From Chamaelirium japonicum (Eukaryota > Streptophyta > Magnoliopsida > Liliales > Melanthiaceae): DNA of 64,000 nt. The translations under genes and the position numbers were made by a program. The stretch's first letter is position 1. Each line of letters begins with the position of its first letter. The notes below the pieces were generated by a model, which did not search any database, had not been told where the DNA came from, and saw only the letters and a list, made by a program, of their open reading frames with translations. This document shows positions 5,065 to 48,574 of the stretch, in pieces. Location: positions 124,001 to 188,000 of the forward strand of contig CANTAL010000025.1 in the NCBI GenBank assembly GCA_947650365.1, written 5' to 3'.

Positions 5065-5160
5065 AGACAGAAGATAGAGAAGAGAGAAGAAGTCCAGCTC
5101 CAGTCCATTCTCGACGGGTATAGGTATAATGTAAGAAGAAATCTAAATTCCAAAACTCCA

Positions 5161-21575: not shown

Positions 21576-22944
21576 AAACGTGCCCCACCTTAAAGGGGTT
21601 ATATATTATTTATTGGGCAACCTTACTTAGGACTTAAGCATTCTATAAGAAACCATAATCTATAGGAAAGATCTGATGGTAGATAAAATCCGACAGTAGA
21701 CAGCTATCCGATCGAACGATCTCATATCAGTTGTAATGTTTTATAATTAAATATTTAAATAATAACATTGAGATGATACTATTTAAATATTTAATAAAAC
21801 AATATACTTTATAATATTTAAAGAAATATTAATTAAAATAAATAAAATAAATAAGCAATCCCCCATCTCACAACACTTTATCAGCATGAACATGTCGAGC
21901 CCAACAGACCAGTCTCAAGAAAATGAAGAGAGAAACAAAGATATAAGTGGAGTTTTGGAATTTAGATTTCTTCTTACTTCATAACTATACCCGTGGCCAA
22001 TGGACTGGAGCATAACTTCTTATATCTTCGTTTATCTCTCCGTTATCTTCTTTCTTCGTTTCTCTCTCCTTTTTTTTATGACTGGTCGGCAGGGCTCGAT
22101 ATGTTCGTGCTGATAACATATTGTGAGATGGGAGAAAAAAAGAGCCGCCAAATTAAATATTAAATAGTTAAGAAGAGAGAAGAAGAAAGAAGAGAACGGA
22201 GAGATAAATAAAGAGAGAACAGAGAACAGAGAAGAAGTCCTCCTCCAGTCCCATAGATTATTTAATAAGTTAGAAGTTGAGTTCTTCTCTCAATAGTTTC
22301 AATCTCTTCGATTTTCTATATTATTTATAGGGTAAGCTTACTTAGGGCCTAAGCAATCTATGGGAAACCCTAATCCATGGGAGAAGAGAGAAGAGAACAA
22401 AGAGATTTAATTATATTTTTGAGAAGTAGAGTTTTGGAATTTAGAATCCTTCTAACATCACACCTATACCCGTGGCCAACGTACTGGAGTAGGACTTCTT
22501 CTCTCTTCTCTCTTCGTTTATCTCTCTGTTCTATTCTATCTTCTTCTTTCTCTTATGTCTTCGTTTCTCTCTCTATTTCCTTGTGACTAGTGGGCTGGGC
22601 TCGACTTGTTCGTGCTGATAACGTGTTGTAAGATGGAAGAAAGGGAGAACCGTCAAACGTGCCCCACCCTAAAGGGGTCGTATAAATATTAAGAAATTGA
22701 GTTTTGGAATTTACATTCCTTCTTACTTCACACCTATACCCGTGGCTAATGGACTGGAGCAGGACTTCATTTCTCTTCTCTCATCGTTTATCTCTTCGTT
22801 CTCTTCTTCTTTCTTCTTCTCTATCTTCTGTCTTTGTTTCTATCCATTTTCTTATGACTGGTCGGCTGGGCTTGATATATTTGTGCTGATAACATGTTGT
22901 GAGATGGGAGAAAGAAAGAGCTATCAAACATGCCCCACCCTAAT
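21576..22944 (-). repeat. LTR-like module array, mainly reverse, with AT scraps
   Basis: Reverse module and U3-like edge to 21,740, an AT scrap to 21,855, a forward piece to 21,937, then reverse units. The stretch 21,745-21,910 (aataacattgagatgatact, then aaataaataagcaatccccc) is the inverted counterpart of 35,760-35,905 and 61,150-61,290. Confidence 0.72.
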
Positions 22945-24655
22945 GGGATTGTATAAAATTTATTAATATTTAAATAATTATTTAACTATATTAATATATT
23001 GAGAGCATAACTTCTTCTCTCTTTATTCACTCTCTTCTATCTTTGGTTATTTAGAGAGAAGAAGTCATGCACCAGTCCGTTGTTTTATAATTAGTTAAAA
23101 TAAAATAAATAAGCAATCTCTCATCTTACAACCCATGGCCAATGGACTGGAGCAGGACTTCTTCTCTCTTCTTTTAAATATTTATTTAAATCTCCCTGTT
23201 TTCTTCTCTCTTCTCCCATAGATTAGGGTTTCCCATAGATTGCTTAAGCCCTATGTAAGCTTACCCTATAAATAATATACGACCTCTTTATGGTGGAATA
23301 CGTTTGATGGCTCACTCTTTCTCTAATCTCATAACATGTTATCAGCACGAACATGTCGAGCCCAGCTGACCCGTCATAAGAAAACAGAGAGAGAAACAAA
23401 GATAGAAGAGAGAGAAGACGAGAGAAGAGAACAGAGAGATAAATGAAGATAGAATAGAGAAGAAGTCCTGCTCCAGTCCATTACCATCCGATCGAACGAT
23501 CTTATAATAGTTGTAATGGATTAGGGTATCCTATAGATTGCTTAGGCCCTAAATAAGCTTACCCTATTAATAATATACGACCCCTTTTGGGTGGGGCACG
23601 TTTGATGACTCTCTCTTTCTCTCATCTCACAACACGTTATCAGCACGGACATGTCGAGCCATAGAAGAGAAAGAAGATAACGGAGAGATAAACAAAGATA
23701 GAAGAGAGAAAAATTCCTGCTGTAGTTTATTGCCATCTAATCGAACGATCTCATAACAGTTGTAATGGATTAAGGTTTCCCATAGATTTCTTAGGCCCTA
23801 AGTAAGATCACCTATAAATAATATACGACCCCTTTAGGGTGGGACACGTTTGACGGTTCTCTCTTTCTCCCATCTTATAATATATTATCAGCACAAACAT
23901 ATCGAGCACAGCTAACCAGTCGTAAGAAAACGAAGAGAGAAACGAAGACAAAAGAGAGAGAAGAGAACGAAGAGATAAACGAAGATAGAAGAGAGAAGAA
24001 GTCTTATTCCAGTCTATTTGCTATGGATATAGGTGTGAAATAAGATAGAATCTAAATTCCAAAACTCCACTTCTCAATAATATAATTAAATCTCTCCATT
24101 CTCTTCTCTCTTCTCCTATAGATTAGGGTTTGCTGTAGATTGCTTAGGCTCTAAGTAACTTACCCTATAAATAATTTAGGGAGGGGCACGTTTGACAGCT
24201 CTCTCTTTCTCCCATCTCACAACACGTTATCAGCACGAACATGTCAAGTCCAGCCGACCAATTACAAGAAAACGGAGGAAGAAACGAAGACAGAGAATAA
24301 GGAAGAAGAGAGAAGAGAACGGATAAATAAATGAAGATAGAAAAGAGATGAAGTCCTGCTCCAGTCCATGGTCACAGGTATAGGTGTGAAGTAAGAAGGA
24401 ATATAAATTCCAAAACTCCACTTCTCAATAATATAATTAAATCTCACCATTCTCTTCTCTCTTCTCCCATGGATTAGGGTTTCCCATAGATTGCTTAGGC
24501 CCTAAATAAGCTTACCCTATAAATAATATACGACGTCTTTAGTATGGGGAACGTTTAACGGCTCTCTCTTTCTACCATCTCACAATCATTATCAGCACGA
24601 ACATGTCGAACCCAGTCGACCAGTCGTAAAAATACGGAGAGAGAAACAAAGATAG
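22945..24655 (+). repeat. Outer palindrome arm, left (partner 50,120-51,708)
   Basis: An inverted copy of 50,120-51,708. Anchors: gtataaaatttattaata at 22,951 against its complement ending 51,708; ttttataattagtt at 23,093 against 51,579; ccatccgatcgaac at 23,484 against 51,196; ccatctaatcgaa at 23,733 against 50,948; gaatataaa at 24,399 against 50,379. Coordinate sums stay at 74,659-74,785, so the arms are collinear with few indels. The content is forward modules plus two short U3-edge joins. Confidence 0.75.
24221..24238 (+). other. Primer-binding-site-like motif of the LTR-like module (reference copy)
   Basis: 'aacacgttatcagcacga' is the best-kept box of the module and lies about 60 bp downstream of the GGGTGGGGC box. 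I associate this word with the LTR/leader junction of plant Ty1/copia elements (from memory). Its complement also resembles the anticodon arm of plant tRNA-Ile(AAU). Both links are inference. No gag or pol coding sequence follows any copy, so the modules are LTR or leader relics, not whole elements. Confidence 0.35.
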
Positions 24656-25819
24656 AAGTGGAGTTTTGAAATTTATTTTACTGGTAGGTTGGGCTCAATA
24701 TATTCGTACCGATAACGTATTGTGAGATGGGAGAAAAAGAGAGCGGTCAAACGTGCCCTACCATAAAGGAGTCGTATATTATTTATAGGGTAAGCTTACT
24801 TAGGACCTAAGCAATCTATGTGAAACCCTAATCAATGGGAGAAGAGAGAAGAGAACGGAGAGATTTAATTATATTATTGAGAAGTAATGTTTTGGAATTT
24901 AGATTTCTTCTTACTTCATACCTATACCTGTGGCGAATGGACTGAAGCACTTCACACCTATACCCATGGCCAATGGACTGGAGCAAGACTTCTTTTCTCT
25001 TCTATTTTTATTTATCTCTACGTTCTCTTCTCTCTTCTTCTTTCTCTTCTGTCTTCGTTTCTCTCTCCGTTTTCTTATGACTGGTCGATTGGGCTCGATA
25101 TATTCGTGCTGATAACGTGTTATGAGATAGGAGAAAGAGAGAGCCATTAAACGTGCCTCATGCTAAAGGGGTCCTATATTATTTATAGGGTAAGATTACA
25201 TAGGGCCTAAGCATTCTATAGGAAACCCTAATCCATGGGAGAAGGAAGAAGAGAACGAAGAGATTTAAATATATTATTAAAAAGTAGAGTTTTGGAATTT
25301 AGATTCCTTCTTACTTCACACCTATACCTATGGCCAATGCACTAAAGCAGGACTTATTCTCTTTTCGTTTATCTCTTCTTCTCAATCTTCTGTCTTCGTT
25401 TCTTTCACCATTTTCTTGTGACTTATTGGCTGGGCTCGATATATTCGTGCTGATAACTTGTTGTGAGATACGAGAAAGAGAGAGCCATCAAACGTGCCCC
25501 ACCCTAAAGGGTTTATATATTATTTATATGGTAAGCTTACTTAGGGTCTAAGTAATCTATGGGAAATTCTAATCTATTAAATAAGAGAGAGAAACGAAGA
25601 TTGAAGAGAGAGAAGTAAACGAAGAGAGAAACGAAGACAAAAGAGGGAAGACCTCTTCTTTCTTTATTTATCTCTCTATTCTCTTCTCTCTCTTCTATCT
25701 TCGTTTATCTCTCTGTTCTCTTCTCTTTTCTGTCTTCGTTTCTCTATCTGTTTTCTTGTGACTGGTCAACTGGGCTCGATAAATTCGTGTTGATAATCAT
25801 AAAAACTCTACTTCTCAAT
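24656..25819 (-). repeat. Reverse LTR-like array
   Basis: Reverse modules, opening with a shortened unit. The join at 24,932-24,965 (ggcgaatggactgaag, then cacttcacacctatacc) is a truncated 3' box fused to a full one. The same fusion, inverted, is at 39,775-39,800. From about 25,560 short purine and pyrimidine pieces lead into the island. Part of the inner palindrome. Confidence 0.75.
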
Positions 25820-26335
25820 AATTTTAATTAATATTTTATAATTTATTAAATAAATTTTTAATTATTTAATTACATAATAATTTTTTTAAATTATTATTTA
25901 TTTAACTATAAAATTATTTAATAAATAAATTATTTATTTATTTAAGTAAATAATATATTTCATCACTAAATAAGTTTTTAAATATTTAAATAATTAACTA
26001 ATTATTTAATTATTTAAAAATAAAATAATAATTAAAGAAATAACTAATAAAATAAATTAATAAATTAATTATATAATTAAATTATTATTTCTTTATTTCA
26101 TTATTTAAATAATTAAATAGTTATCAAATTTAATTATTAAATAATATAATAATAATAAATAAATAAATAAATAAATTTAATTTAATAAATAGATAAATAA
26201 ATAATTAAATAAATTAATTATCATACTAAAACTTAATTATTAAATTATTTAAATTATTTAATAATGAAATAAATAATTAATTTAATTAAAAAAATTATAG
26301 CAAATTACTATGATAATCATAATAACGTTAAGATG
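25820..26335. repeat. AT-rich island 7
   Basis: Inverted relative to most islands: the terminus is at the right (tactatgataatcataataa near 26,305, then cgttaagatgaactattgct). It pairs with the island at 38,691-39,235 as part of the palindrome. No coding content. Confidence 0.75.
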
Positions 26336-27169
26336 AACTATTGCTATGGCAAACCCTATTCCATGGAAGAAAAGAGAAGAGAACAGGGAGATTTAATTAT
26401 ATTATTAAGAAGTGGAGATTTGGAATTTAGATTCTTTCTTACTTCACACCTATACCCATGACAATGGACTGGAGCTGGACTTTTTCTCTCTTCTCTCTTC
26501 ATTTATATCTCTGTTTTCTTTTTTCTTCTTCTTTCTCTTCGGTCTTCGTTTCTCTTTCCATTTTTATGTGACTGGTCGGCTGGGCTTGATATGTTCGTGC
26601 TACTAACGTATTATGAGATAGGAGAAAGAGAGAGCCGTCAAATATGCCCCACCCTAAAGGGTTCGTATAAATATTGAGAAGTAGAGTTTTGGAATTTAAA
26701 TTCCTTCTTACTTTACACCTATACCTGTAGCCAATAGACTAGAGTAGGACTACTCCAGTCCATTGGCCACGGGTATAGGTGTGAAGTAAGAAGGAATCTA
26801 AATTCCAAAACTCTACTTCTTAATATTTATACGACCCTTTAGGGTGGGGCATATTTGACAGCATTCTATTTCTCCCATCTTACAACATGTTATCAGCATG
26901 AATATATAGAGCCCAGCCGACCAATCTTAAGAAAACGGAGAGAGAAACAAAGATAGAAGAGAGAGAAGAAGAGAGAAGAGAACATAAAGATAAACGAAGA
27001 GAGAAGAGAGAAGAAGTCCTGCTCCAATCCATTGGCCACGGGTATAGGTGTGAAGTAAGAAGAAATTTAAATTTCAAAACTCTATTTCTTAATAATATAA
27101 TTAAATCTCTCCGTTCTCTTCTCTCTTTTCCCTTGGATTAGGACCTGTTCTCTTTTCTCTCTGAATAAT
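26336..27169. repeat. LTR-like module array
   Basis: Reverse 26,336-26,755, then forward 26,745-27,135. The flip at about 26,750 joins 'ggactactccagtccattgg', that is two 3' boxes back to back. Ends in a module truncated after 'ttggattaggacc'. Confidence 0.72.
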
Positions 27170-27700
27170 TATTTAGTTCGTTTACTTTATATTATTAATA
27201 TTAAAAAAATAATTAAATAACTGAATAATTAAATAATTAAATTAATTAATTATATTACTAAAAAATTAATTATTAAATAATTAAATAATTTAAACGAAGA
27301 CAGGAGAGAGAGAAGAGAGAAAAAGTCTTATTCTAGTCCATTCGCCATGGGTATAGGTATAAAGTAAGAAGGAATCTAAATTCCAAAAGTCCACTTCTCA
27401 ATAGTATCATCTCAATATTATTATGATTATCATAGTAAATTCTTTTCTCTTTTGGTTTTAATTAAATGATTAATTTAATTGAAAAAATTATAGTAACAAA
27501 CTCTACTTAATTATTATAGTAGTAAAATATAGAAAGATAAGAGAAGATAATTAAATATATATTTAATTTTTTAAATATTTAATTTATTAAACTAATTAAA
27601 TTAATTAAATAATAGGAAGTAAAGAAGGAAGATAAAGCATACCCGTATTATTTGCTTTAAAAATAATTTACATTTTTCTTTTAAAAAATTAAAAACATTA
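27170..27700. repeat. AT-rich stretches with a broken fold-back and island leader
   Basis: AT stretch to 27,295, a short forward purine tract and 3' box, half a fold-back from 27,398 (cttctcaatagtatcatctc), then the leader (gaagataaagcatacccgta) and 'cattacaactgttatgagat'. The whole series is repeated inverted at about 37,140-37,700 and 62,520-63,080. Confidence 0.75.
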
Positions 27701-28068
27701 CAACTGTTATGAGATTATTCGATCGAATGACTGTCCACCGTCGGATCTCTCTCATGGATTAGGGATTCCTATAGATTACTTTGGCCCTAAATAAGCTTAG
27801 CCTATAAATAATATATGACCTATTTAGGGTGGGGCATATTTGACAGCTCTCTCTTTCTTCTATCTCACAACACGTTATTAGCACGAACATGTCGAGCTCA
27901 ACCGACCAGTCGTAAGAAAATAGAGAGAGAAATGAAGACAGAAGAGAGAAAAGAAGAACGAAGAGAACATAAAGATAAATAAAGATAAAAGAGAGAAGAA
28001 ATCCTGCATCAGTCCATTGGCTACTGGTATAAATGTGAAGTAAGAAGAAATCTAAATTCCAAAATTCC
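27701..28068 (+). repeat. Forward LTR-like module, near full length
   Basis: U3-like edge near 27,715, TATA near 27,801, GGGTGGGGC box near 27,828, primer-site-like motif near 27,867, purine tract and 3' box, ending at 'ccaaaattccacttttcaat'. About 365 bp and one of the simplest complete units in the window. Confidence 0.75.
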
Positions 28069-28790
28069 ACTTTTCAATAGTATCATCTTAACATTATTAT
28101 GATTATCATAGTAATATTACTATAAATTTTTTAATTAAATTAATAATTTATTTAATTATTAAATAATTTAAATAAATTAATAATTATTTTTTTAGTAAAA
28201 TAATAAATTTATTTAATTATCTAGGTATTTTATTAGTTATTTCTTAAATTATTATATTATTTTTAATTAATTAAATAATTAGTTAATTATTTAAATATAT
28301 TAAAATTTATTTATGGAAGAAATATATTAAATAAATTATTTACATAGACAAATAAATAATTTAATTAATAAAATATTTTATAGAAAAATATATAATAATT
28401 AAAATAAATTATTATCTAATTAAATAAATAAAAATTATTTTATTAAATTATGAAATTTTAATTAAAATAAATAAAAATTTTAATTATTTAATTAAGTAAT
28501 AAAATAAAATAATAATTCAATAAATATTTACTTATTATTTAAATAATTAGTTAATTATTTGAATATATAAATAATAAAATATTTATTTAAATAACTTAAT
28601 ATTTTCTTAAATAATTAAATAAGTATTTATTTATTTTAATATTTAAATAATATATATTTAATTTAAATAATTTCATTTTAATAAATATAATAAATAAATA
28701 TTGAGAAGTAGAGTTTTAGAATAATTTATAGGTATGAAGTAAATTTAAATTTTGGAAATAAAATTATTTAATTAATTTATAATTATATAA
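28069..28790. repeat. AT-rich island 8
   Basis: Opens with the terminus (agtatcatcttaacattatt). Near 28,700-28,790 it holds a degraded module 3' box (gagaagtagagttttagaat, aggtatgaagtaaattt). Inverted partner of 35,930-36,795: that island has the same degraded box at 35,945-35,990. Confidence 0.75.
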
Positions 28791-31700
28791 CATGTTATCA
28801 GCACGAACATATCGAGCCCAGCCGACCAGTAACAAGAAAGCGGAGAGAGAAACGAAGCCAGAAGTGGAGTTTTGGAATTTAGATTCATTATTACTTCACA
28901 CCTATACCCGTGGCCAATGGACTGGAGTAGGACTTCTTCTCTCTTTTCTCTTCATTTATTTCTCCGTTCTGTTCTCTCTTTTTCTCTCTCTTCTGTCTTC
29001 GTTTCTTTCTTAGCTTTCTTGTGATTGGTCGGCTGGGCTCGGCATATTCGTGCTGATAACGTGTTGTGAGATGGGAGAAAGAGAGAGCAATCAAATGTGT
29101 CCTACCCTAAAGGGGTCGTATAAATATTGAGAAGTGGAGTTTTAAATACTCACTTCTCAACACGTTATAAATAAATTTAAATTATTTAAGTTGTGATATA
29201 ATAATCTTTGGGAAACCCTAATCCATGAGAGAAGAAAAAAGAGAATAGAGAGAAAAATGAAGATAGAAGAGAGAAAATAACAAAGAGATTTAGTAATTTT
29301 TCTTTTGACTGGTCAGCTTATTATTTAAATATTTAATTATAAATAATTTTTAAAAAATTAAATCTCTCCATTCTCTTCCCTTTTTGTTTATCTCTTTGTT
29401 CTCTTCTCTGTTTATTTTTTTCTTCATTTTTTTGTGACTGGTCGGCTGGACTCGACATGTTCGTGCTGATAACATATTGTGAGAAGAGAGAAGAAGAGAG
29501 AAAAGAACGGAGAGATAAACGAAGAAAGAAGAGAGAAGAAGTCCTGCTCCAGTCCATTAGCCACGGGTATAGGTGTGAAGTAAGAAGGCGGGCACGTTTG
29601 ATGGCTCTTTCTTTCTCCCATCTCACAACACGTTATCAGCACGAACATTTCGAGCCCAACCGACCAGTCATAAGAAAACAGACAGAAAAACGAAGACAGA
29701 AGTAGAGTTTTGGAATTTAGATTTATTCTTACTTCACACCTATACCCATAGCCAATGAACTAGAATATGACTTCTTCTCTCTTCTATCTTTGTTTATCTC
29801 TCTATTTTTTTCTCTCTTCTTTTCTCTCTTCTGTCTTCGTTTCTCTCTTCGTTTTCTTGCGACTGGTCGGTTGGGCTTGACATGTTCGTGTTAATAACGT
29901 GTTATGAGATGGGAGAAAGAGAGAGCTGTTAAACATGCTCCACCCTAAAGGAGTAGTATTTTATTTATAGGTTGAGCTTACTTAGGGACTAAGCCATCTA
30001 TGGGAAACCCTAATCCATGGGAGAAGAGAGAAGAGAACGGAGAGATTTAATTATATTATTGAGAATTAGAGTTTTAGAATTAAAATACCTACTGAATTAA
30101 ACTAGATATATTATCAGCACGAACATGATTTCTTCTCTCTTCTCTCTTTGTTTATCTCTCCGTTCACTTCTATCTTCTTCTGTCTTCATATCTCTCCCTG
30201 TTTTCTTATGACTGGTCGACTAGGATTGACATATTCATGCTGATAATATGTTGTGAGATAAGAGAAGAATAGAGAAGAGAATAAAAAGATAAACAAATAG
30301 AGAAGAGAGAAGAAGTCTTGCTCTCTTTTTCTCTTATCTCACAACACGTTATCAGTATGAACATGTCTAAACCAGCCGACCAGTTGCAAGAAAATAGAGA
30401 GAGAAATAAAAACAGAAGAGAGAGAAGAAGAGAAAAGGGAACGGAAAGATAAACGAAGAGAGAAGAAATCCTGCTCCAGTCCATTGGCCACAGGTATAGG
30501 TGTAAAGTAAGAAGGTATCTAAATTCAAAAACTCCACTTCTGTCTTTATTTCTCTCTATATTATTATGATTGGTCAGTTGGGCTCAACATGTTCATGTAG
30601 ATAACGTGTTATGAGAAGAAAGAAGAGAACGGAGAGATAAACATAGAGAGAAGAGAGGATAAGTCTGGCTCTAGTCCATTCGCTATAGTTATAGGTATAA
30701 AGTGAGAAGGAAGCTAAAGTCAAAAACTCTACTTCTCAATAATATAATTAAATCTCTCCGTTCTCTTCTCTCTTCTCCCATGGATTAGGGTTTCCCATAG
30801 ACTGATTAGGCCCTAAGTAAGTTGACCCAATAAATAATATATGACCCCTTTAGCTAGGGGCATATTTGATGGCTCTCTTTGTCCCATCTCACAACACATT
30901 ATCAGCACGAACATGTCGAGCCCAGCCGACCAGTCATAAGAAAAGGGAGAGAGAAACGAAGATAGAAGAAGAGAGAAGAGAACGAAGAGATAAATATATA
31001 AAGAAAAAAGATGAAGTCCTGCTCCAGTCCATTGGCCATGGGTATAGGTGTGAATTAAGAAGGAATCTAAATTCCAAAACTCTACTTCTTAATATTTATA
31101 CGACCCTTTAGGGTGGGGCACATTTGATGGCTCACACTTTCTCCTATCTTACAATACGTTATCAGTATGAACATATCGAGCCCAGTTGACTAGTCACAAG
31201 AAAACGGAGAGAGAAATAACGACAGAAGAGATAGAAAAAGAGAGAAGAAAATAAAGAGATAAATAAAGAGAGAAGAGAGAAGAAGTCCTACTCCTGTCCA
31301 TTGGGAATAAAATAGAGAGAGAAATAAAGGCAGAAGTGGAGTTTTGAAATTTAGATTCCTTCTTACTTCACACCTATACCTGTGGCCAATGGACTAGAGC
31401 AAGACTTCTTCTCTCTTCTCTCTTCGTTTATCTCTCCGTTCTCTTCTCTCTTCTACTATCTCTTCTGTCTTCGTTTCTCTCTCCATTTTCTTGCGACTGG
31501 TCGGCTGGGCTTGATATGTTCGTGCTGATAACGTGTTGTAAGATAGAAGAAAGAGAGAGCCGTCAAATGTGCCCCGCCCTAAACGGGCCATATATTATTT
31601 ATAGGGTAAGTTTACTTAGGGCCTAAGCAATCTATGGAAAATCCAAATCTATAGGAGAAGAGAGAAGAGATCAGAGAGATTTAATTATATTATTGAGAAG

Positions 31701-31941
31701 TAGAGTTTTGGAATTTAAATTCCTTCTTACTTCACACCTATACCCGTGGCCAATTGACTGGAACAGGACTTCTTCTCTCTTTATTTATCTCTCCGTTCTC
31801 TTCTCTCTTATTCTCTCTCTTCTGTCTTCGTTTCTCTCTCCGTTTTCTTGTGACTGGTCGGTTGGGCTCGACATGTTCGTACTGATAACGTATTATGAGT
31901 TGGGAAAAAGAGAGAGACATCAAACGTGCCCCAAAACTCTA
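28791..31941. repeat. LTR-like module array, mixed; left palindrome arm
   Basis: Forward to 28,863, reverse to about 29,150, a patch of AT and module scraps to 29,370, reverse to 29,480, forward to 29,700, reverse to 30,250, forward to 30,538, reverse to 30,615, forward to 31,330, reverse to 31,941. Most flips use the two recurrent junctions. Everything from 29,825 on is repeated near 55.2-57.3 kb. Confidence 0.78.
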
Positions 31942-32159
31942 CTTCTGTTATTATGATTATCATAGTAATATTACTATAATTTTTTAATTAAATTAATCAT
32001 TAATTTAATTATTAAATAATTTAAATAATTTCATAATTTAAATAATTTAATAATTTAAATTAATCCTTAATAATTAAATAAATGATTAATTTAAATAAAA
32101 AAATTATAGTAATATTACTATGATAATCATAATAACATTAAGATGATACTATTGAGAAG
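31942..32159. repeat. Core fold-back hairpin of the giant palindrome
   Basis: Left arm 'attatgattatcatagtaat' and onwards, right arm the complement ending 'gatgatactattgagaag', with an AT-only loop. The flanks are also inverted: 'cgtgccccaaaactctactt' on the left mirrors 'agtagagttttagggcacg' on the right. The duplicate at 57,328-57,563 keeps the full left end, so the missing end here is a deletion in this copy. Confidence 0.8.
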
Positions 32160-35100
32160 TAGAGTTTTAGGGCACGTTTGATGACTTTCTCTTTCTCCCA
32201 CCTAATAATACGTTATCAGCATGAACATGTCGAGCCCAGCCGACCAGTCACAAGAAAATGGAGAGAGAAACGAAGATAGAAGAGAGAGAATAAGATAGAA
32301 GGGAACAGAGAGATAAATAAAGAGAGAAGAAATCCTACTCCAGCCCATTGGCCACGGGTATAGGTGTGAAGTAAGAAGGAATTTAAATTCCAAAACTCTA
32401 CTTCTTAATAATATAATTAAATCTCTTCGTTCTCTTCTCTTTTTTCTTTTCTCCCATAGATTAGGGTTTTCCATAGATAGCGTAGGCCCTAAGTAAGCTT
32501 ACTCTATAAATAATATAAGACCCCTTTAGGGTAGGGCACATTTGACGGCTCTCTTTTTCTTCCATCTTACAACACGCTACCAGTATGAATATGTCGAGCC
32601 CAACCGACCAGTCACAAGAAAACAAAGAGAGAAACAAAGATAGAAAATATATAAGAAAAGAGGAGAGAATGGAGAGATAAATAAAGTGAGAAGAGAGAAG
32701 TCCTGCTCCAGTCGATTAGCCATGGGTATAGGTGTGAAGTAAGAAGTAATCTAAATTCCAAAACCCCACTTTTGCCTTTATTTCTCTCTCTATTTTTTTC
32801 CCAATGGACTGGAGTAGGACTTCTCTCTTCTTTCTATGTTTATCTCTCCGTTCTCTTCTCTCTTATTCTCTTTCTTCTTTCTTTAATTCTATCTCCGTTT
32901 TCTTTTGGTTGGTTGATTGGGCTCGACAAGTTCGTACTGATAATGTATAATGAAATGGGAGAAAGAGAGAGCCATTAAATATGCCCCACCCTAAAGGGTC
33001 GTATAAATATTAAAAAGTGGAGTTTTGGAATTTAGATTCCTTCTAACTTCACACCTATACCCGTGGCCAATGGACTTGAGCAGGAGTTTATCTCTTTTCT
33101 CTCCTTATTTATCTCTCTGTTCTCTTCTCTCTTCTTCTCTCTCTTCTATCTTCGTTTCTTTCTGTTTTCTTATAACTGGTCGGCTGTGCTCGACATGTTT
33201 GTACTGATAATGTGTTGTGAGATGGGAGAAAGAGAGAGCCATCAAATGTGCCCCAGGCTAAAGGGGTTGTATATTTTTTATAGGGTCAACTTACTTAGGG
33301 CTTAATCAGTCTATGGAAATCCTAATCCATGGGAGAAGAGAAAAGAGAACGGAGAGATTTAATTATATTATTAAAAAGTGGAGTTTTGAAATTTAGATTC
33401 ATTCTCACTTTATACCTATAACCATGGCGAATGGACTGGAGCCGAACTTATCCTCTCTTCTCTCTTCGTTTATCTTTCCATTCTCTTCTTTCTTCTCACT
33501 ACACATTATCTGCACGAACATGTCGAGCCCAATCGACCAGTCATAAGAAAATAAAGAGAGAAATAAAGATAGAAGTGGAGTTTTTGAATTTAGATTCATT
33601 CTTACTTCACACCTATACCTGTGGCCAATGAACTGGTGTAGGACTTCTTCTCTCTTTGTTTATTTCTCCGTTCCTTTCTCTCGTTTTCTCTTTCTTCTGT
33701 CTTCGTTTCTCTCTCTATTTTTTTGCAACTGGTTGGCTGCTCTCGATATGTTCGTGTTGATAACGTGTTGTTAGATGGAAGAAATAGAGAGCCATCAAAT
33801 TTGCCCCACCCTAAAGGGGTCATATATTATTTATTGGGTAAGTTTACTTAGGGTCTAAGCAATCTATGGAAAACCCTAATCTATGGGAGAAAAAAGAAGA
33901 TAACAGAGAGATTTCATTATATGATTTAGAAATAGAGTTTTAAAATTTAGATTCCTTCTTATTTCTCACCTGTACCCGTGGCCAATGGACAGGAGCAGGA
34001 CTTCTTCTCTCTTCTCTCTTCGTTTATCTCTCTATTCTCTTCTCTCTCTTCTGTCTTCGTTTCTCTCTCCATTTTTTTGTGACTCGTTGGCTGGGCTCGA
34101 CATGTTCATGCTGATAATGTGTTATAAGATGGGAGAAAGAGAGAGCCATTAAACATGCCCCATCTTAAAGGGGTCGTATAAATATTGAGAAGTGGATTTT
34201 TGGAATTTAGATTCCTTTTTACTTCACACCTATACCCATGGTGAATGGACAGGAGCAAGACTTCTTCTCTCTTCTCTCTTTGTTTATCTCTCTGTTCTCT
34301 TCTCTATTCTTCTCTTATCTCACAACACGTTATCAGTATGAACATATCGAGCCCAGTCGATCGGTCACAAGAAAACGGAGAGAGAAATAAAGACAGAAGA
34401 AGGAGAAAAGAATGGAGAGATAAACAAAGAGAGAAGAAGTCCTGTTCGTATTGATAATATGTCTACTTTAATTCAGAAGGAATCTAAATTCCAAAACTCT
34501 ACTTCTTTGTAATATAATTAAATCTCTCCATTCTCTTCTCTTTTCTCCCATGGATTAGGGTTTCACATAGATGGCTTAGTCCCTAAGTAAGCTTAACCTA
34601 TAAATAATATATGACTCCTTTAGGGTGGTGCATGTTTGACGGCTCTGTCTTTCTCCCATCTCATAACACGTTATTAACATGAACATGTCGAGCCCAGCTG
34701 ACCAGTCGTAAGAAAACGGAGAGAGAAACGAAGACAGAAGAGAGAGAAGAAGAGAGAAAAAAACGAAAAGATAAACAAAGATGGAAGAGAGAAGAAGTCA
34801 TGGTCCAGTCTATTGGCCATGGGTATAGGTGTGAAGTAAGAAGGAATCTAAATTCCAAAACTCTACTTCTGTTTTTGTTTTTCTCTCTATTTTCTTGTGA
34901 CTGGTCGGCTGGGCTCGACATGTTCATGCTGATAACGTGTCGTGAGATGGGAGAAAGAGAGAGCCATCAAATGTGCCCACCTTCTTACTTCACACCTATA
35001 TCCATGGCCAATCGACTGGAGTAGGACTTCTTCTCTCTTCTTTCTTTATTTATCTCTCCGTTCTCTTCTCTCTTCTTTTCTTTTCTCACAATATGTTATC

Positions 35101-35794
35101 AGTACGAACATGTCGAGCCCAGCCGACCAGTCACAAGAAAACGAAGAGAAAAATGAACAGAGAAGAGAACAGAGAGATAAACGAAGAGAGAAAAGAATAA
35201 AGAGATTTAATTATTTAAAAATTATTTATAATTAAATATTTAAATAATAAGCCGACCAGTCACAAAAAAAATTATTAAATCTCTCTGTTCTCTTCTCTCT
35301 TCTATCTTTATTTCTCTCTCTGTTTTTTTCTTTCTTCTTCTATGGATTAGGGTTTTCCATAGATTGTTATATCACAATAATTTAAATAATTTAATTTTAA
35401 ATATAACATGTTGAGAAGTGAATATTTAAAACTCTACTTCTCAATATTTATACAACCCCTTTAGGGTGGGGCACGTTTGACGGCTCTCTTTCTCCCATCT
35501 CACAACACGTTATCAGCACGAACATGTCGAGCGTAGCCGACCAATCACAAGAAAGTGGAGAGAGAAATAAATACAGAAGAGAGAGAAGAAGAGAGAACAA
35601 AATGGAGAAATAAATAAAGAGAAAAGAGAGAAGAAGTCCTGCTTCAGTCCGTTTGCCACGGGTATAGGTTTGAAGTAATAAGGAATCTAAATTCCAAAAC
35701 TCCAATTCTGTCTTCGTTTCTCTCTCTGTTTTCTTATGACTGGTTAGCTGGGCTCGATATGTTCGTACTGATAACGTGTTGTGAGATGAGGGAT
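32160..35794. repeat. LTR-like module array, mixed; right palindrome arm
   Basis: Mirror of 28.8-31.9 kb: forward 32,165-32,770, reverse to 33,490, forward to 33,575, reverse to 34,312, forward to 34,860, reverse to 35,085, forward to 35,215, an AT and module patch to 35,440, forward to 35,705, reverse to 35,794. It is about 0.46 kb longer than the left arm between 33.3 and 34.3 kb, consistent with one extra unit. Confidence 0.78.
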
Positions 35795-36795
35795 TTCTTA
35801 TTTATTTTATTTATTTTAAGTAATATTTATTTAAATATAATAAAGTATATTATTTCTTTAAATATTTAAATAGTATAATCTTAACGTTATTATTTAAATA
35901 TTTAATTATAAAATAATCAAATAATTTTATTTCCAAAATTCAAATTTACTTCACACTTATAAATTATTCAAAAACTCTACTCCTTAATGTGTATTTATTA
36001 TATTTATTATAATTAAATTATATAAATAATTTATATATTATTTAAATATTAAAATAAATTATTATATATTTAATTATATAAAAAAATATTAAGTTTTTTA
36101 AATTAATATTTTATTATTTATTTATTCAAATAATTTAGTAATTATTTAAATAATAATTAATAGTTATTTAATTATTGTTTTATTTTATTATTTAATTAAA
36201 TAAATAATTTTTTTATTTATTTCAATTAATATTTTATAATTTAATAAAATAGTTTTTAATTATTTAATTAAATAATAATTTATTTAAATTATTATTTGTT
36301 TTACAATAAAATCATTTAATAATTAAATTATTTATTTGTTTAAGTAAATAATCTATTTAATAAATTTTTTTCATAAATAATTTTTTAAATATTTAAATAA
36401 TTATATAATTATATAATTATTTAAAAATAATATAATAATTAATGAAATAACTATTAAAATAAATTAATAAATTAATAAATTAATTATATAATTATATCAT
36501 TATTTATTTATTTAGTAATTTAAATAATTAAATAGTTACCTAATTAAACTATTTAATAATATAATAATAATATAATAATAATACAATAATAATAAATAAA
36601 TAAATTTTTAAAATTAATTAAATAACTAGATAATTACATAATAAAATAAATTTATTATTTTACTAAAAACTAAATTATTAAATAATTAAATTATTTAAAT
36701 TATTTAATAATTAAATAATTAATTAATTTAAATAAAAAAATTATAGTAACATTACTATGATAATCATAATAACGTTAAGATGATACTATTGAGAA
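35795..36795. repeat. AT-rich island 9 with ATA-type microsatellite
   Basis: About 1 kb of nearly pure A+T. The terminus is at the right (tactatgataatcataataa, then cgttaagatgatactattga). A run of ATA/AAT units lies at 36,551-36,602. In the duplicate at 61,185-62,165 this run is slightly longer, as expected of a microsatellite. No gene. Confidence 0.78.
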
Positions 36796-38690
36796 GTGAA
36801 GTTTTGAAATTTAGATTCCTTCTTACTTCACACCTATACCCATGGCTAATGGATTGGAGCAAGACTATTTTTTTCTTTTATCTTTGTTTATTTGTATGTT
36901 CTCTTATCTCTTCTTCTCTCTCTTCTGTCTTTGTTTCTCTCTCTATTTTCTTACGACTGGTCGGCTGTGCTCGACATATTCTTACTGATAACGTGTTGTG
37001 AGATGGGAGAAAAAGTGAGCCGTCAAATATGCCCCACCATAAATAGGTCGTATATTATTTATAGGGTAAGCTTACTTAGGGCCTAAGCAATCTATGGGAA
37101 TCCCTAATCCATGGGAGAGATCCGACGGTGGACAGCCATTTGATCGAATGATCTCATAAAAGTTATAATGTTTTAAATTTTTTTAAAGAAAAATATAAAT
37201 TATTTTTAAAGTAAAAAATAATGGTGTGCCTTATCTTCCTTCTTTACTTCCTATTATTTAATTAATTTAAATAGTTTAATAAACTAAATAAATAAAAAAT
37301 TAAATAAATATTTAATTATCTTCTCTCATCTCTCTATATTTTATTACTATGATAGTTAAGTGGAGTTTGTTACTATAATTTTTTTAATTAAATTAATTGT
37401 TTTATTAAAATGAAGAGAGAAGAGAATTTACTATGATAATAATAATAATGTTGAGATGATACTACTGAGAAATAGAGTTTTGGAATTTAGATTTCTTCTT
37501 ACTTTATACCTATACCCGTGGCGAATGGACTGGAGTAAGACTTTTTCCCTTTTCTCTCTCTCCTGTCTTCGTTTAAATTATTTAATAATTTAAATAATTT
37601 AATAATTAAGTTTTAAGTAAAATAATTAATTTATTTAATTATTTAATTATCTAGTTATTTAATATTTTTTTTAATATTAATAGTTTAAAGTAAACTAATT
37701 AAATAATTATTGAGAGAGAAGAGAGAACAAGTTCTAATCCAAGGGAGAAGAGAGAATAGAATGGAGAGATTTAATTATATTATATAGAAGTAGAGTTTTA
37801 AAATTTAAATTCCTTCTTACTTCATATCTATACCCGTGGCCAATGGACTGGAGTAGGACTTCTCTTTTCTCTCTTCGTTTATCTCTCTGTTCTCTTCTAT
37901 CTTCTTATCTCTCTTTTTCTCTCTCTTTTGTCTTCGTTTCTCTCTCTGTTTTCTTATGACTGGTCGGCTGGGCTCGACATATTCATGCTGATAATATGTT
38001 GTAAGATGGGGGAAAGAGAAAGACATCAAACGTGCCCCACCCTAAAAGGGTCGTATAAATATTAAGAAGAGGAGTTTTGGAATTTAGATTCCTTCTTATT
38101 TCACACCTATACTCATGGCCAATGGACTGGAGCAGGACTTCTTCTCTCTTCTTATAATACGTTATTAGCACGAACATGCATGTCGAGCCCATCCGACTAA
38201 TAATAACAAAATGGAGAGAGAAACAAAGACCAAAGAGAAAGAAGAAAAGAGAAGAGAATGAAGAGATAAACAAAGAGAGAAGAGAGAAGAAATCCTACTC
38301 TAGTCCATTGGCCATGGGTATAGGTGTGAAGTAAGAAGGAATCTAAATTCCAAACCTTCACTTCTCAATATTTATACGACCTCTTTAGGGTGGGGCACGT
38401 TTGACGGCTCTCTTTTTCTCCTATCTCATAACACGTAATCAGTACGAACATGTCTAGCCCAGCCGACCAGTCACATGAAAATAAAGAAAGAAACAAAAAC
38501 AGAAGAGAGAGAAGAAGAGAGAAGAAAATAGAGATATAAAAGAAGAGAAAAGAAGTCCAGCTCCAATCTATTGGCCACGGGTATAGGTGTGAAGTAAGAA
38601 GGAATCTAAATTCCAAAACTCTACTTCTCAATAATATAAATAAATCTCTTTGTTTTCTTCTCTTTTCTCCCATAAATTAGGGTTTCCCAT
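36796..38690. repeat. LTR-like modules with inserted AT pieces
   Basis: A reverse module to about 37,150 with U3-like edge, leader and AT stretch 37,160-37,330, part of a fold-back to 37,460, reverse 3' box to 37,575, AT stretch to 37,710, reverse to 38,150, then forward to 38,690. The forward unit at 38,165 has 'catgcatgtcgagccc', a 4-bp duplication also present at 63,552. Confidence 0.75.
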
Positions 38691-39235
38691 AGCAATAGTT
38701 CATCTCAACGTTATTATGATTATCATATTAATTTTCTATAATTATTTTAAATTAATTAATTATTTATTTCATTATTAAATAATTTAAAAAATTTAATAAT
38801 AAAGTTTTTAGTAAGATAATTAATTAATTTAATTATTTATTTATCTAGTTATTAAATAAATTTATTATTGTTTTTATTTATTATTATTATAATATTTAAT
38901 AATTAAATTAGGTATTTATTTAATTATTAAAATTATTAAAGTAAAAAATAATAATTTAATTATATAAGTAATATATTAATTCATTTTATTAGTTATTTCT
39001 TTCATTATTATTTTATTTTAAAATAATTAAATAATTAGTTAATTATTTAAATATTTAAAAACTTATTTAGTGATGAAATATATTAAATAAATTATTTACT
39101 TAAACAAATAAATAATTTAATTATTAAATAATTTTATAGTTACATAAATAATAATTTAAATAAATTATTATATAATTAAATAAATAAAAAATTATTTTAT
39201 AAATTATAAAATATTAATTAAAACTATTGAGAAAT
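38691..39235. repeat. AT-rich island 10
   Basis: Opens 'agcaatagttcatctcaacg', closes 'aaaactattgagaaatggag'. Duplicated in direct orientation 1,804-1,816 bp downstream (40,496-41,068), with a truncated third copy at 54,531-54,825 and an inverted copy at 25,820-26,335. Confidence 0.78.
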
Positions 39236-40495
39236 GGAGTTTTTATGATTATCAGTATGAACTTGTCGAGTCCAGCCGACCAGTCACAAGAAATCGAAGA
39301 GAGAAACGAAGACATAAAAGAAACAAGAAGAGGTAAGAGAATAGAGAGAAAAACAAAAACAGAAGAGAGAGAAGAGAGAAGAGAATGAAAAGATAAATGA
39401 AGAGAGAAGAGAGAAGAAGTCTTCCCTCTTCTGTCTTTATTTCTTATTTAGTTTTCTTCTCTCTCTTCTATCTTCGTTTCTCTCTCTTATTTAATGGGTC
39501 AGGGTTTCCCATAGATTACTTAGACCCTAAGTAAGCTTACCATATAAATAATATATGACCCCTTTACTGTAGGGCATGTTTGATGGCTCTCACTTTCTCG
39601 TATCTCACAATACGTTATCAACACAAATATGTCGAGCCCAGCCAACCAGTCACAAGAAAACGGAGAGAGAAACGAAGACAGAAGAGAGAGAAGAAGGGAG
39701 AAGAGAATAGAGAGAAACGAAAAGAGAAGAGAGAAGAAGTCCTGCTCTAGACCATTGGCCATGGGTATAGGTGTGAAGTTCTTCAGTCCATTCGCCATAG
39801 GTATCGGTGTGAAGTAAGAAGGAATCTAAATTCTAAAACTCTAATTCTCAATAATATAACTAAATCTCTCCGTTCTCTTCTCTCTTCTCCAATGGATTAG
39901 GGTTTCATATAGATTGCTTATGCCCTAAGTAAGCTTACCCTATAAATAATATACGACCCCTTTAGGGTAGGGCATATTTGACGGCTCTCTCTTTCTCCCA
40001 TCTCACAACACGCTATCAGCACGAACATATTGAGCCCAGCCGACCAGTCAAAAGAAAATAGAGAGAGAAATTAAAATATAAGAGAGAGAAACGAAGAAAG
40101 AAGAAGTTCTGCTCCAGTCTATAAGCCATGGGTATTGGTGTGTAGTAAAAAGGAATCTGAATTCCAAAACTCTACTTTTTAATATTTATACGACCCGTTT
40201 AGGGTGGGGCACTTTTGACGACTCTTACTTTCTCCCATCTCATAACATGTTATCAGCACGAATATGTCGAGCCCAACTGACCAGTCATAAGAATACGGAG
40301 AGAGAAACGAACACAGAAGAGAGAGAAGAAAATGGAGAGATAAACGAAGAGAGAAGCAGCTCTACTCTAGTCCATTGGTCACAGGTATAGGTATGAAGTA
40401 AGAAGGAATCTAAATTCCAAAACTCCACCTCCCAATAATATAATTAAATCTCTCAGTTCTCTTCTATTTTCTAATATGGATAAGGGTTTCCTATA
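39236..40495 (+). repeat. Forward LTR-like array
   Basis: Forward modules with TATA boxes near 39,541 and 39,940. It includes the fused 3' boxes at 39,775-39,800 (gaagttcttcagtccattcg). 38.36-39.58 kb and 40.17-41.39 kb form a 1.8-kb direct repeat with the islands inside. Confidence 0.78.
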
Positions 40496-41810: not shown

Positions 41811-41865
41811 CACTATAAAAAAAAACATTTTTTACCGACAGAATATATCCATTGGTAATATTGGG
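41811..41865 (+). repeat. CACTA terminal inverted repeat and first subterminal motif
   Basis: 'cactataaaaaaaaacattt' gives the diagnostic CACTA start, and 'accgacagaatatatccatt' gives the subterminal transposase-binding-like motif. A complementary perfect partner is not found at the right end. Confidence 0.8.
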
Positions 41866-41879
41866 TTTTCATCGGTAAC

Positions 41880-44305
41880 AATTCATATTTAGATGTTTTT
41901 TCGTATTTCGAATTTGTGAGCAAGTTTTAAGTAGTAATTGTAAGAATTTACCCACCGATTGACTAATTTAAAGTCTAAGCGTTGAAAAATCATAAGTTAG
42001 TGTGTTTCGGATTTTGAAATTGGTTTGGATTCGATCGGATCGTCATCGAATCGTATCCGATAAATTGTACTTGGATGTTTTTTTATATTTTAGACTTGCT
42101 AGCAAGTTCTAATTAGATGTTTTAAATTTACCCTCCGATTGACAAATTTAGAGTCTAAGCGTTCAAAAATTATAAGTTAGCGTGTTTCAGATTTGAAATT
42201 GGTTTGGATTCAATCAGATCATCATCGGATCACATTCGATAATTTGTACTTAGATTTTTTTTGTATTTCAGACTTGCGAGCAAGTTTTAAGTAGATATTT
42301 TAACAATTTACCCTCCGATTGACTACTTTAGAGTCTAAGCGTTGAAAAATCATAAGTTAGCATGTTTTAAATTTTGAACTTGTTTTGGATTCGATAGAAT
42401 TATCATCGGATCACATCCGATATTTCGTACTTAGAAGTTTTTTCGTATTTTGGACTTGCGAGCAAGTTTTAAATAGATATTTTGAGAATTTACCCTCCGA
42501 TTGACTAATTTAGAATCTAAGCATTGGAGAATCATAAGTTAGCGTGTTTCAAATTTTGAAGTTGGTTTGGATTCGATCGGATCGTCATCGGATTGCATCT
42601 GATAATTCGTATTTGGATGTTTTTTATATTATGGACTTGCGAGCAAGTTCTAATTAGATATTTTAAGAATTTACCCTCCGATTGACCAATTTAGAGTCTA
42701 AGCGTTCAAAAATTATACGTTTGCTAGTTTAGGATTTGAAATTGGTTTGGATTCGATCGAATTGTCATCGAATCACATTCGATAATTCGTTCTTAGATTT
42801 TTTTTTATATTTTGGACTTACGAGCAAATTTTAAGTATATATTTTAAGAATTTACCCTCCGATTGACTAATTTAGAGTCTAAGCGTTCAAAATCATAAGT
42901 TAGCGTGTTTCGGATTTTGAAATTGGTTTGGATTCGATTGGATCATTATCGGATCACATCTGATAATTCGTACTTGGATGTTTTTCATATTTCGGACTTG
43001 CAAGCAAGTTCTAATTAGATATTTTAACAATTTACACTCCGATTGATCAATTTAGAGTCTAAGTGTTCAAAAATCATAAGTTAGCGTGTTTCAGATTTGA
43101 AATTAGTTTGGATTCGATCGGATCATCATCAGATCGCATCCGATAATTCGTACTTGGATATTTTTTGTATTTCAGACTTGCGAGCAAGTTCTAATTAGAT
43201 ATTTTAACAATTTATCTTTCGATTGACCAATTTAGAGTCTAAGCATTCAAAAATTATAAGTTAGCGTGTTTCGGATTTTAAATTGGTTTGGATTCGATCG
43301 GATCGTCATCGGATTACATCCGATAATTCGTACTTGGATGTTTTTTCGTATTTCGGACTTGCAAGCATGTTTTAAGTAGTTATTTTGTATTTCGGACTTG
43401 CGAGAAAGTTCTAATTAGATATTTTATGCATTTACCCTCCGATTGACCAAGTTAGAGTCTAAGCATTCAAAAATCATAAGTTAGCTTGTCTTATATTTGA
43501 AATTAGTTTGGATTCGATCGGATCGTCATCGGATTGCATTCGATAATTTGTACTTAGATTTTCTTTTGTATTTCGGACTTGAAAGCAAGTTTAAAGTAGA
43601 TATTTTAATAATTTACCCTCCGATTGACTAATTTAGAGTCTAAGCGTTGAAAAATCTTAAGTTAGCGTGTTTCGGATTTTGAACTTTGTTTGGATTCAAT
43701 TGAATCATCATCAGATCGCATCCGATAATTCGTACTTGGAAGTTTTTTCGTATTTCTGACTTGCGAGCAAGTTTTAAGTAGATATATTAAGAATTTACCC
43801 TCCGATTGACTAATTTAGAATCTAAGCGTTGGGAAATCATAAGTTAGCATGTTTCAGATTTTGAAGTTGGGTTGGATTCGATCGGATCAACATCGGATCA
43901 CATCCGATAATTCGTACTTGAATTTTTTTTTGTATTTCGGACTTGCGAGCAAGTTCTAAATAGATATTTTAAGAATTTACCCTCTGATTGATCAATTTAG
44001 AGTCTAAGCGTTCAAAAATCATAACTTATCGAGTTTCAGATTTGAAATTGGTTTGGATTCGATCGGATCATCATTGGATTGCATCCGATAATTTGTACTT
44101 GTTTTTTTTTTTGTATTTCAGACTTGCGAATAAGTTTTAAGTAGATATATTTAGAATTTACTCTCCGATTGACTAATTTAGAGTCTAAGCATTCAAAAAT
44201 CATAAATTAGCGTTTTTGGATTTTGAACTTGGTTTGGATTCGATCGGATCGTCATCGGATCGCATCTGATAATTCATACATGGATGTTTTTTCGTATAAC
44301 AAGAG
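41880..44305. repeat. 13 tandem copies of a ~181-bp subterminal repeat
   Basis: The phrase 'tggtttggattcgatc' or a close variant starts at about 42,021, 42,200, 42,381, 42,563, 42,743, 42,924, 43,104, 43,284, 43,504, 43,686, 43,868, 44,049 and 44,230. Spacing is 179-182 bp except for one 220-bp interval, where a 40-bp piece (attttgtatttcggacttgc) is duplicated at about 43,381. Each unit holds 'ggacttgcgagcaagtt', 'accctccgattga' and a hyphenated palindrome around gattcgatcgga/catccgat. Long subterminal arrays are common in CACTA elements. The array abuts the transposase relic without a gap. Confidence 0.9.
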
Positions 44306-48245: not shown

Positions 48246-48252
48246 TCAAACA

Positions 48253-48535: not shown

Positions 48536-48574
48536 GAAACAGAAAGGGGATCTGGGATCGGGTGGTTATTAAAT

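Follow-up and report, generated by a model that had tools for sequence, protein, structure and literature searches.

The window analyzed here, that is, the whole stretch of 64,000 nt of Chamaelirium japonicum DNA (GCA_947650365.1, contig CANTAL010000025.1, positions 124,001–188,000 of the forward strand), contains a large palindrome whose two arms derive from one ancestral arrangement and whose axis is also the axis of symmetry of an AT-rich hairpin element (table 1). It probably arose long ago, when a repeat-mosaic segment of a plant chromosome was duplicated in inverted orientation, with this hairpin-forming element as the nucleus.

Table 1. Coordinates of the Features Described in the Window
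Feature	Start	End	Strand	Remarks
Left arm	24,671	32,056	−	7.4 kb; aligned to right arm, fragment order mirrored
Right arm	32,057	40,104	+	8.0 kb; self-BLAST, fragment order, arm alignment
Probable outer extension, left arm	22,315	24,670	−	BLAST and fragment order
Probable outer extension, right arm	50,104	52,258	+	Beyond CACTA element; BLAST and fragment order
CACTA transposon	41,811	48,809	−	Inserted in repeat unit of right flank
AT-rich hairpin element at axis	31,934	32,167		234 bp, 12% GC
Axis hairpin element, second copy	57,320	57,571		Both ends intact; mirror flanks
Duplicated segment including axis	29,822	38,622	+	Duplicated at 55,206–64,000; BLAST 97.1%
Second palindrome-core copy	55,206	64,000	+	Direct repeat; runs to window end
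Solo arm-like block, no mirror partner	5,306	7,990	−	Matches right arm 34,870–32,107, inverted
Shorter solo arm-like block	13,623	15,041	−	Matches 34,870–33,503 inverted, 81.8% (BLAST)

Mirror Arms within a Repeat Array

A 364-bp repeat unit fills 68% of the window, in 236 fragments (102 on the plus and 134 on the minus strand), and the 4,340 inverted matches returned by self-BLAST at E-values of 1e−10 or below make for a difficult background. Two direct duplications, of 1.8 kb (38,242/40,052) and 8.8 kb (29,822/55,206), were found by the same search. The "U3-like edges" proposed in the initial annotation could not be established: the unit does carry a TATA-like motif, but none of eight repeat-derived open reading frame (ORF) pieces reached the Pfam cut-off, and the matches of repeat ORFs below it (Holin_BhlA, Ferlin_C, dsRBD2, and SYS1) were taken as chance. 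The order of a TATA-like motif, a conserved stretch, and an ATG might suit a piece of a copia-type leader, an identity that we do not claim for the unit. There are 21 ORFs of at least 110 aa; in the analyzed DNA, no Rfam family reached the gathering threshold and no tRNA was found, plasmid records searched with 24,690–40,290 gave no match, and exact 20–24-mers of the unit had no match in either viral or prokaryote contigs.

Around the axis, five inverted self-BLAST matches form a chain on nearly constant coordinate sums: 30,320–33,792 on itself (sum 64,112, 85.3%), 28,093–30,323/36,590–34,253 (64,683, 81.1%), 26,750–28,702/38,135–36,105 (64,885, 81.8%), 25,026–26,749/40,104–38,293 (65,130, 83.5%), and 24,672–25,261/40,057–39,471 (64,729, 86.8%). 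They agree with the sums (64,105–65,036) and coordinates from which a giant palindrome had been claimed in the initial annotation, which had also called for a self-comparison and an arm alignment; the latter gives 88.2% identity over 6,973 columns, with 412 columns found only in the left arm and 1,075 only in the right. Counting k-mers per coordinate sum did not single out the axis (396 in the 64,500 bin, 426 in the 89,750 bin, median 106.5). Such counts did not make the axis stand out against the repeats around it, and they were replaced by a decisive test based on the order and truncation points of the repeat fragments, 30 in the left arm and 32 in the right. The mirror score of this order is 47, while 2,000 shuffles gave a mean of 4.2 and a maximum of 15.5; of the 30 left-arm fragments, 22 have both ends matched in a right-arm partner and eight are paired in part only, and matching odd truncations are common to both arms, in mirror order. 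When 1,036 pseudo-centers were scanned by fragment order, the best was 32,150, and the next best outside the shoulders of the peak (30,350–34,150) was 57,550, with a score of 9.0. The near-continuous mirror arms of 7–8 kb initially described are thus borne out by both fragment order and alignment.

Mirror partners are more similar (mean identity 0.878, 21 pairs) than opposite-orientation background pairs (0.822, 6,466 pairs). With the duplicated copy left out, the mirror partner is the best match of the left fragment in 12 of 21 cases and ranks 11th or lower in seven; another unit is closer for the nine remaining fragments (lowest partner rank 46 of 84), so that exchange within the array, or noise from short fragments, has to be allowed for. 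Overall, two collinear arms in mirror order descend from one segment, and the spacer between them is short, consisting of the 234-bp axis element, itself nearly symmetrical.

The initial extent of 7–8 kb holds for the arms themselves but understated the mirror, which probably runs outwards to about 22.3 kb on one side and 52–53 kb on the other, pairing 22.3–24.7 kb with 50.1–52/53 kb across a CACTA transposon that breaks the right side. The outer parts match by BLAST at 79.0% (22,419–24,675/52,258–50,104), and their fragment-order score of 11.5 exceeds the maximum of 9.5 in 1,000 shuffles; on the right, the BLAST match ends at 52,258 and the fragment alignment reaches about 53.2–53.5 kb. The CACTA element has its terminus, CACTATAAAAAAAAAC, at 41,811 and a degraded opposite end, and the repeat unit that it interrupts is recognizable again from 48,810. 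The Pfam scan identified its tnp2 transposase (PF02992, E-value 1.3e−29) at 44,553–45,068, which we take to be a sign of plant DNA.

Two arm-like blocks occur without a mirror partner. The longer one aligns with the right arm in two inverted BLAST pieces (82.2% and 82.7%), has an AT end from which no axis-anchored mirror extends, and possesses a unit (6,267–6,626) corresponding to the right-arm unit 33,572–33,928, which is absent from the left arm. At most informative sites, both blocks seem to lie outside the grouping formed by the arms: over the 891 columns common to the left arm (L1), the right arm (R1), and the two blocks, 45 sites group the arms against the blocks and eight and six sites support the alternatives. 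With the longer block alone (2,100 columns), the arms agree with each other at 188 sites, and the block agrees with the left arm at 126 and with the right arm at 123; identity is 87.5% between L1 and R1, and 84.2% and 84.5%, respectively, between each of them and this block. The shorter block groups with the longer one, and is nearer to R1 (84.9%, 1,364 columns) than to L1 (81.9%, 906 columns). The tree is unrooted, and the sisterhood of the arms in it depends on a rough clock judged by eye from branch lengths.

The Axis Hairpin Element and the Second Copy of the Core

The DNA at the palindrome axis can fold back on itself. The DNA folding energy of 31,925–32,185 is −77.6 kcal/mol, compared with −19.0 ± 3.1 kcal/mol for 200 shuffles (z −19), in accordance with the AT-rich hairpin initially placed at the center. 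The element is 234–252 bp long across copies; in the first, 18 bp are missing at its left end that are kept at its right end and in the sister copy. In the second copy, mirror flanks begin no more than 3 bp from both element ends and are 86.5% identical over about 1.49 kb (1.5 kb compared), and the first copy shows the same fit of flanks to element once the 18-bp loss is allowed for. We tested 27 AT-rich islands, out of 39 stretches of at least 60 bp outside unit coverage, for an axis-anchored mirror. Seven have one, which exceeds 106 bp only at the two palindrome axes, copies of one another, the five others having short mirror flanks of 55–106 bp. The hairpin stems include a geminivirus-type nonanucleotide, TAATATTAC, which we set aside, judging it to be expected in DNA so AT-rich and palindromic.

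The core of the palindrome is present twice, a point in which the initial annotation understated the structure. The two copies are 97.8% identical over 8,769 aligned columns, and the second starts within a repeat unit (29,822/55,206) rather than where an arm ends. This high identity makes arm-to-arm conversion testable: among 2,189 sites compared across copies, 218 arm differences are conserved between copies, one is of the within-copy, conversion-like type, and two are crossed. The arms have diverged with next to no conversion since the core was copied, and the palindrome is not of the conversion-maintained, sex-chromosome type. Age and a lack of strong conversion had been offered as alternatives in the initial annotation; both are supported, the age being great relative to the later duplication.

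Origin and Maintenance of the Palindrome

In the scenario that we favor, a break or a stalled fork would have exposed single-stranded DNA, in which the hairpin element could fold back and prime copying of the adjoining arm, yielding a fold-back or hairpin-capped inverted duplication; its survival may be due to the deletions, insertions, and point changes that made the arms unlike. We infer the priming step from the axis alone, the fold-back step leaving no unique scar after 12% divergence. With less confidence, a read-through transcript might fold into a central hairpin of about 150–170 bp followed by imperfect arms, and might feed the silencing of the repeat family by small RNAs, in which case the palindrome would be a by-product and not a selected device. 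TATA-covering units facing the center are few (two in the left arm and three in the right, vs. six and four facing away), which was counted against this scenario.

Sister-chromatid or inverted-repeat exchange (nonallelic recombination) is a somewhat unlikely source of the duplication in place of fold-back priming. Its substrates are abundant, given the density of inverted units, and the 1.8- and 8.8-kb direct duplications show that unequal exchange or a similar process took place here, but exchange between units would place the axis at a unit, whereas the observed axis is the one about which the hairpin element is symmetrical. This position counts against exchange among unit copies, while exchange at the level of the element still fits. 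The same axis is indeed expected from sister-chromatid exchange between the inverted halves of the element.

Another reading, compatible with an old fold-back duplication as to origin, concerns why the palindrome is kept: as a selected small-RNA locus whose long hairpin transcript silences the 364-bp family, on the model of the siRNA-yielding Arabidopsis inverted repeat IR71. We regard such selection as unlikely, although long double-stranded RNA from the arms, if they are transcribed, is a plausible candidate role. The arms share 55 perfect runs of at least 21 bp, 34 of them of at least 24 bp (longest 61), and central RNA hairpins of 150–173 pairs are predicted on both strands of both copies, with MFEI values of 2.06–2.40; the printed MFEI of the precursor of ice-plant mcr-miR6, a 22-nt hairpin small RNA, is 2.11 (PMC4977306). 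This 22-nt sequence matches 76 places in the window with at most four mismatches, three of them with a single mismatch, and its star matches 55, compared with none for ten shuffled queries; the small RNA corresponds to a stretch of the repeat. Five of the 24 novel ice-plant miRNA mature sequences were tested (mcr-miR4, 5, 6, 7, and 8), along with the stars of mcr-miR6 and mcr-miR3, and only mcr-miR6 and its star matched the window. However, the matched 22-mer may have some other cause of conservation, shared by repeats from a wide range of plants. Polarized changes show an excess of the C-to-T type (87 vs. 36, with 13 sites not polarizable), at per-site rates of 0.049 in CG, 0.077 in CHG, and 0.033 in CHH, which would fit dense methylation, but any silenced repeat could carry such a signature, which was read here with no unmethylated sequence as a control. 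Moreover, the arms have decayed by 12% with essentially no conversion, which speaks against their pairing being under selection.

A giant fold-back transposon, that is, a mobile unit in which 364-bp subunits, arranged as inverted repeats of at least 7 kb, surround an AT-rich core, is a quite unlikely alternative. Inverted arms built of subunits around such a core match the layout of fold-back elements, several AT islands lie between inverted unit ends, five islands besides the axes have mirror flanks of 55–106 bp, and the core exists in two copies. However, sharp outer ends were not seen, the homology continuing weakly into the outer extension; the start of the second copy falls within a unit; and arm-like blocks occur partnerless. 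No copies sharing the outer ends of the palindrome were seen within the 64-kb window. An assembly artefact, whether from reads that fold back or from a wrongly joined second haplotype, is highly improbable: read fold-back artefacts would give near-identical arms, whereas 12% of aligned arm sites differ here and 218 differences are common to both copies. An artefact would concern at most the second copy, which at 97.8% could be an allele set in tandem.

Significance and Comparison with Known Systems

The usual expectation for a long palindrome is loss or shortening, and yet this one, of 15 kb (perhaps 30 kb if the outer extensions are counted), has outlived at least one further duplication. The partnerless blocks and the sister copy provide, within 64 kb, an ordered natural record of palindrome formation, decay, and escape from conversion, and the hairpin that nucleated the structure has a precisely placed candidate in the axis element. 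AT-rich hairpins embedded in this repeat family might repeatedly nucleate fold-back duplications and spread the family through ever larger palindromes, the central stem being processed like a microRNA precursor, as is reported for a matching 22-mer of ice plant. In this microRNA-like reading, the stem would comprise the repeat-derived 22-mer on one side and its partner on the other, with an AT-rich stem-loop between them. Although this combination is very unlikely, it would mean that one hairpin both builds and silences the array.

The palindrome resembles fold-back transposons and long-TIR miniature elements in its AT-rich core and inverted, subunit-built flanks, from which it differs in that no defined ends were found and arm-like blocks occur without partners. 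Among palindromes of plant DNA, those of the Salix purpurea W chromosome are likewise large, but they are described as gene bearing, 200 kb in size, and subject to gene conversion between arms (PMC7023750), whereas here none of the five arm ORFs of at least 110 aa reaches the cut-off for a Pfam match, and there is essentially no conversion. Like the present palindrome, IR71 of Arabidopsis is a long inverted repeat that could in principle yield hairpin RNA; transcription and siRNAs, together with methylation in cis, are reported features of IR71 (PMC2902426), whereas transcription and siRNAs would be predictions for the present palindrome. In maize transposons, miRNA-like structures accompany more small RNA and CHH methylation (PMC10760457). 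Fold-back inverted duplication at hairpins is known in yeast (PMC7467729) and human (PMC3907307), and these cases share with ours inverted copies flanking a short spacer, with inverted sequence at the spacer boundary. They are new rearrangements, whereas the present palindrome is old, lies in repeats, and owes its priming interpretation to the axis only. It is a palindrome ordinary in kind and unusually well documented.

Mirror order of the arms

The palindrome comprises a left and a right arm (table below) that read in mirror order away from an AT-rich, hairpin-forming axis element. In a self-comparison of the window, five inverted matches with coordinate sums of 64,112–65,130 chained from the centre outwards, spanning 24,672–40,104, and the arms (left 7,385 bp, right 8,048 bp) aligned end to end with 88.2% identity over 6,973 shared columns, 412 and 1,075 further columns being private to the left and right arms, respectively. 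Identity per 500-column block was 0.85–0.91, except in the last block (0.79, 108 aligned columns). In the first copy, the axis element occupies 234 bp between the arms, with 12% GC, and the single-stranded DNA fold of 31,925–32,185 reaches −77.6 kcal/mol (z −19). Both the near-continuous mirror-order palindrome and the central AT-rich hairpin of the initial annotation are thus borne out.

Most of the window is formed by a 364-bp repeat unit. A profile search, seeded with a pair of units and taken through three rounds of refinement, identified 236 fragments (truncated pieces) of this unit, of which 102 lie on the plus strand and 134 on the minus strand; together they make up 68% of the window and 72% of the palindrome. 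Because such a mosaic gives thousands of inverted matches (4,340 in the self-comparison) and the palindrome axis ranks only second by k-mer count per coordinate sum, we compared the order and truncation points of the fragments, reading from the centre outwards and scoring a pair as full when orientation agreed and both ends fell within 12 positions. Twenty-two of 30 left fragments paired fully with a right fragment and eight partially, for a score of 47 against a mean of 4.2 and a maximum of 15.5 in 2,000 shuffles; none of 1,036 pseudo-centres in the window came near this score, except on the palindrome's own shoulders. The mean identity of mirror partners was 0.878, versus 0.822 for 6,466 background pairs. 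In this comparison, which used 21 of the 22 full pairs (one overlapped too little), the mirror partner was the left fragment's best match in 12 cases, among the top three in 14, and at rank 11 or beyond in seven. The two arms share a common ancestral arrangement.

By inspection, uncounted, fragments break recurrently at unit positions of about 128, 228, 244, 264, and 347 throughout the window, and the break is often adjoined by an inverted segment from near position 128; these breaks may have arisen by inversion via the unit's inverted pyrimidine/purine stretches. Another feature of the window is a two-piece direct duplication spanning about 3.3 kb (3377–6703 / 11797–15045, offset 8.3–8.4 kb, 83–86% identity).

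The mirror probably extends outwards past 24,671 and far to the right. BLAST aligned 22,419–24,675 with 52,258–50,104 (79.0%, 2,291 columns), and fragment order over 21,945–24,660 / 50,119–53,479 scored 11.5, whereas the best of 1,000 shuffles reached 9.5; the two methods disagreed about the outermost partners. We grade this extension as probable only, because it exceeds the shuffles by a narrow margin and because another, weaker palindrome (23,763–25,579, 77%) occupies the same site. The right-side gap before it contains a CACTA transposon, which has one clear and one degraded terminus, and a direct duplication some 1.8 kb long. Just inside the clear terminus, a repeat of roughly 181 bp is tandemly arrayed over 41880–44297 (copies 82–86% alike), perhaps as CACTA subterminal repeats, and 46598–47475, also inside the element, holds a direct repeat (290-bp offset, 88.6%). 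A further ORF of the element (45,378–45,947, minus strand) had no Pfam match, and the five arm ORFs of 110 aa or more had none above the cut-off.

Features of the palindrome and its surroundings
Feature	Position	Strand or orientation	Remark
Left arm	24,671–32,056		
Right arm	32,057–40,104		
Longer solo block	5,306–7,935	inverted	matches inner right arm, without its own mirror partner
Shorter solo block	13,623–15,041	inverted	matches inner right arm, without its own mirror partner
CACTA transposon	41811–48809		inserted in repeat unit, interrupted at 41,811 and recognisable again from 48,810
tnp2 transposase ORF of CACTA transposon	44,553–45,068	minus	PF02992, E 1.3e-29
One-mismatch mcr-miR6 sites	22609, 31519, 56905		

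Second copy, solo blocks, and order of events

An 8.8-kb segment including the axis was later duplicated directly, with the second copy at 55,206–64,000, where the window ends (97.8% over 8,769 columns). At the 2,189 columns where both arms of both copies align, 1,870 sites are identical in all, 218 are arm differences conserved between copies, and 93 are singletons; five others have at least three states, one resembles within-copy conversion, and two are crossed. The arms had already diverged at the time of the second copying and were scarcely homogenised afterwards, and the earlier suggestion that arm-to-arm conversion is not strong holds, with 218 conserved differences against a single conversion-like site.

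Outside the palindrome lie two arm-like blocks without a mirror partner (solo blocks). An unrooted six-sequence tree resolved the two left arms (L1, L2), the two right arms (R1, R2), and the solo blocks as three groups, each with a support of 100. Over 891 shared columns, 45 sites group L1 and R1 against the solo blocks (alternatives 8 and 6); with the longer block alone, 188 sites join left and right arms (other pairings 126 and 123). A rough clock by eye places the root on the solo stem, so that the inverted duplication would postdate the split of the solo lineage. That the shorter block is nearer R1 (84.9%) than L1 (81.9%) counts against this simple picture. One unit present in the right arm and absent from the left is matched by a corresponding unit in the longer block, so the left arm seems to carry a deletion.

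RNA potential and possible methylation signature

If transcribed throughout, the arms would offer 55 perfect arm-to-arm runs of at least 21 bp and 34 of at least 24 bp (longest 61), and the central RNA is predicted to fold with 150–173 pairs (MFEI 2.06–2.40) from either strand of either copy. A novel ice-plant miRNA of 22 nt, mcr-miR6, is described together with its star and its precursor, which is 233 nt long and has 28% GC and an MFEI of 2.11 (PMC4977306). With up to four mismatches allowed, mcr-miR6 has 76 matches in the window, 22 of them in the palindrome and three of the 76 with one mismatch; its star has 55 window matches, and ten shuffled queries had none. The repeat contains a 22-mer almost identical to mcr-miR6, and the published miRNA may have originated in a related repeat instead of a gene. 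From these matches, small RNA may be produced in at least one plant by a related sequence that lies in inverted arrangement. siRNA output from this palindrome remains a hypothesis.

Polarised changes between copies comprised 87 of C-to-T type and 36 opposite (13 unpolarised), with per-site rates, taken without a control region, of 0.049 (CG), 0.077 (CHG), and 0.033 (CHH). The excess would fit densely methylated repeats.

The axis element and the origin of the palindrome

The axis element's terminal motif occurs at 16 places in the window with up to three mismatches (none expected), mostly on or close to the edges of AT-rich islands. In the second copy, the element (57,320–57,571, 252 bp) keeps both ends, with mirror flanks beginning within 3 bp, and in the first its left side lacks 18 bp. 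Outside unit coverage, 39 stretches are 60 bp or longer, and 27 AT-rich islands among them were tested; seven have an end-anchored mirror flank, five of 55–106 bp. Flanks of kilobase scale occur only at the two axis elements, so the palindrome and the element share one axis. Within 57320–57571, the outermost 70 bp of each half pair with one mismatch, versus an arm difference of about 12%, which would suit local maintenance of stem similarity.

The palindrome most likely originated by fold-back at the axis element, which would have primed an inverted copy of the arm. The main rival, though less probable, is sister-chromatid exchange involving inverted repeats; had it taken place among copies of the unit, it would by itself leave the position of the axis unexplained. 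Fold-back priming at hairpins has been described for inverted duplications in yeast (PMC7467729) and human (PMC3907307). This palindrome is a true, old inverted duplication, unusually well documented; the kind is already known, and its axis element offers a specific nucleation candidate that can be tested.
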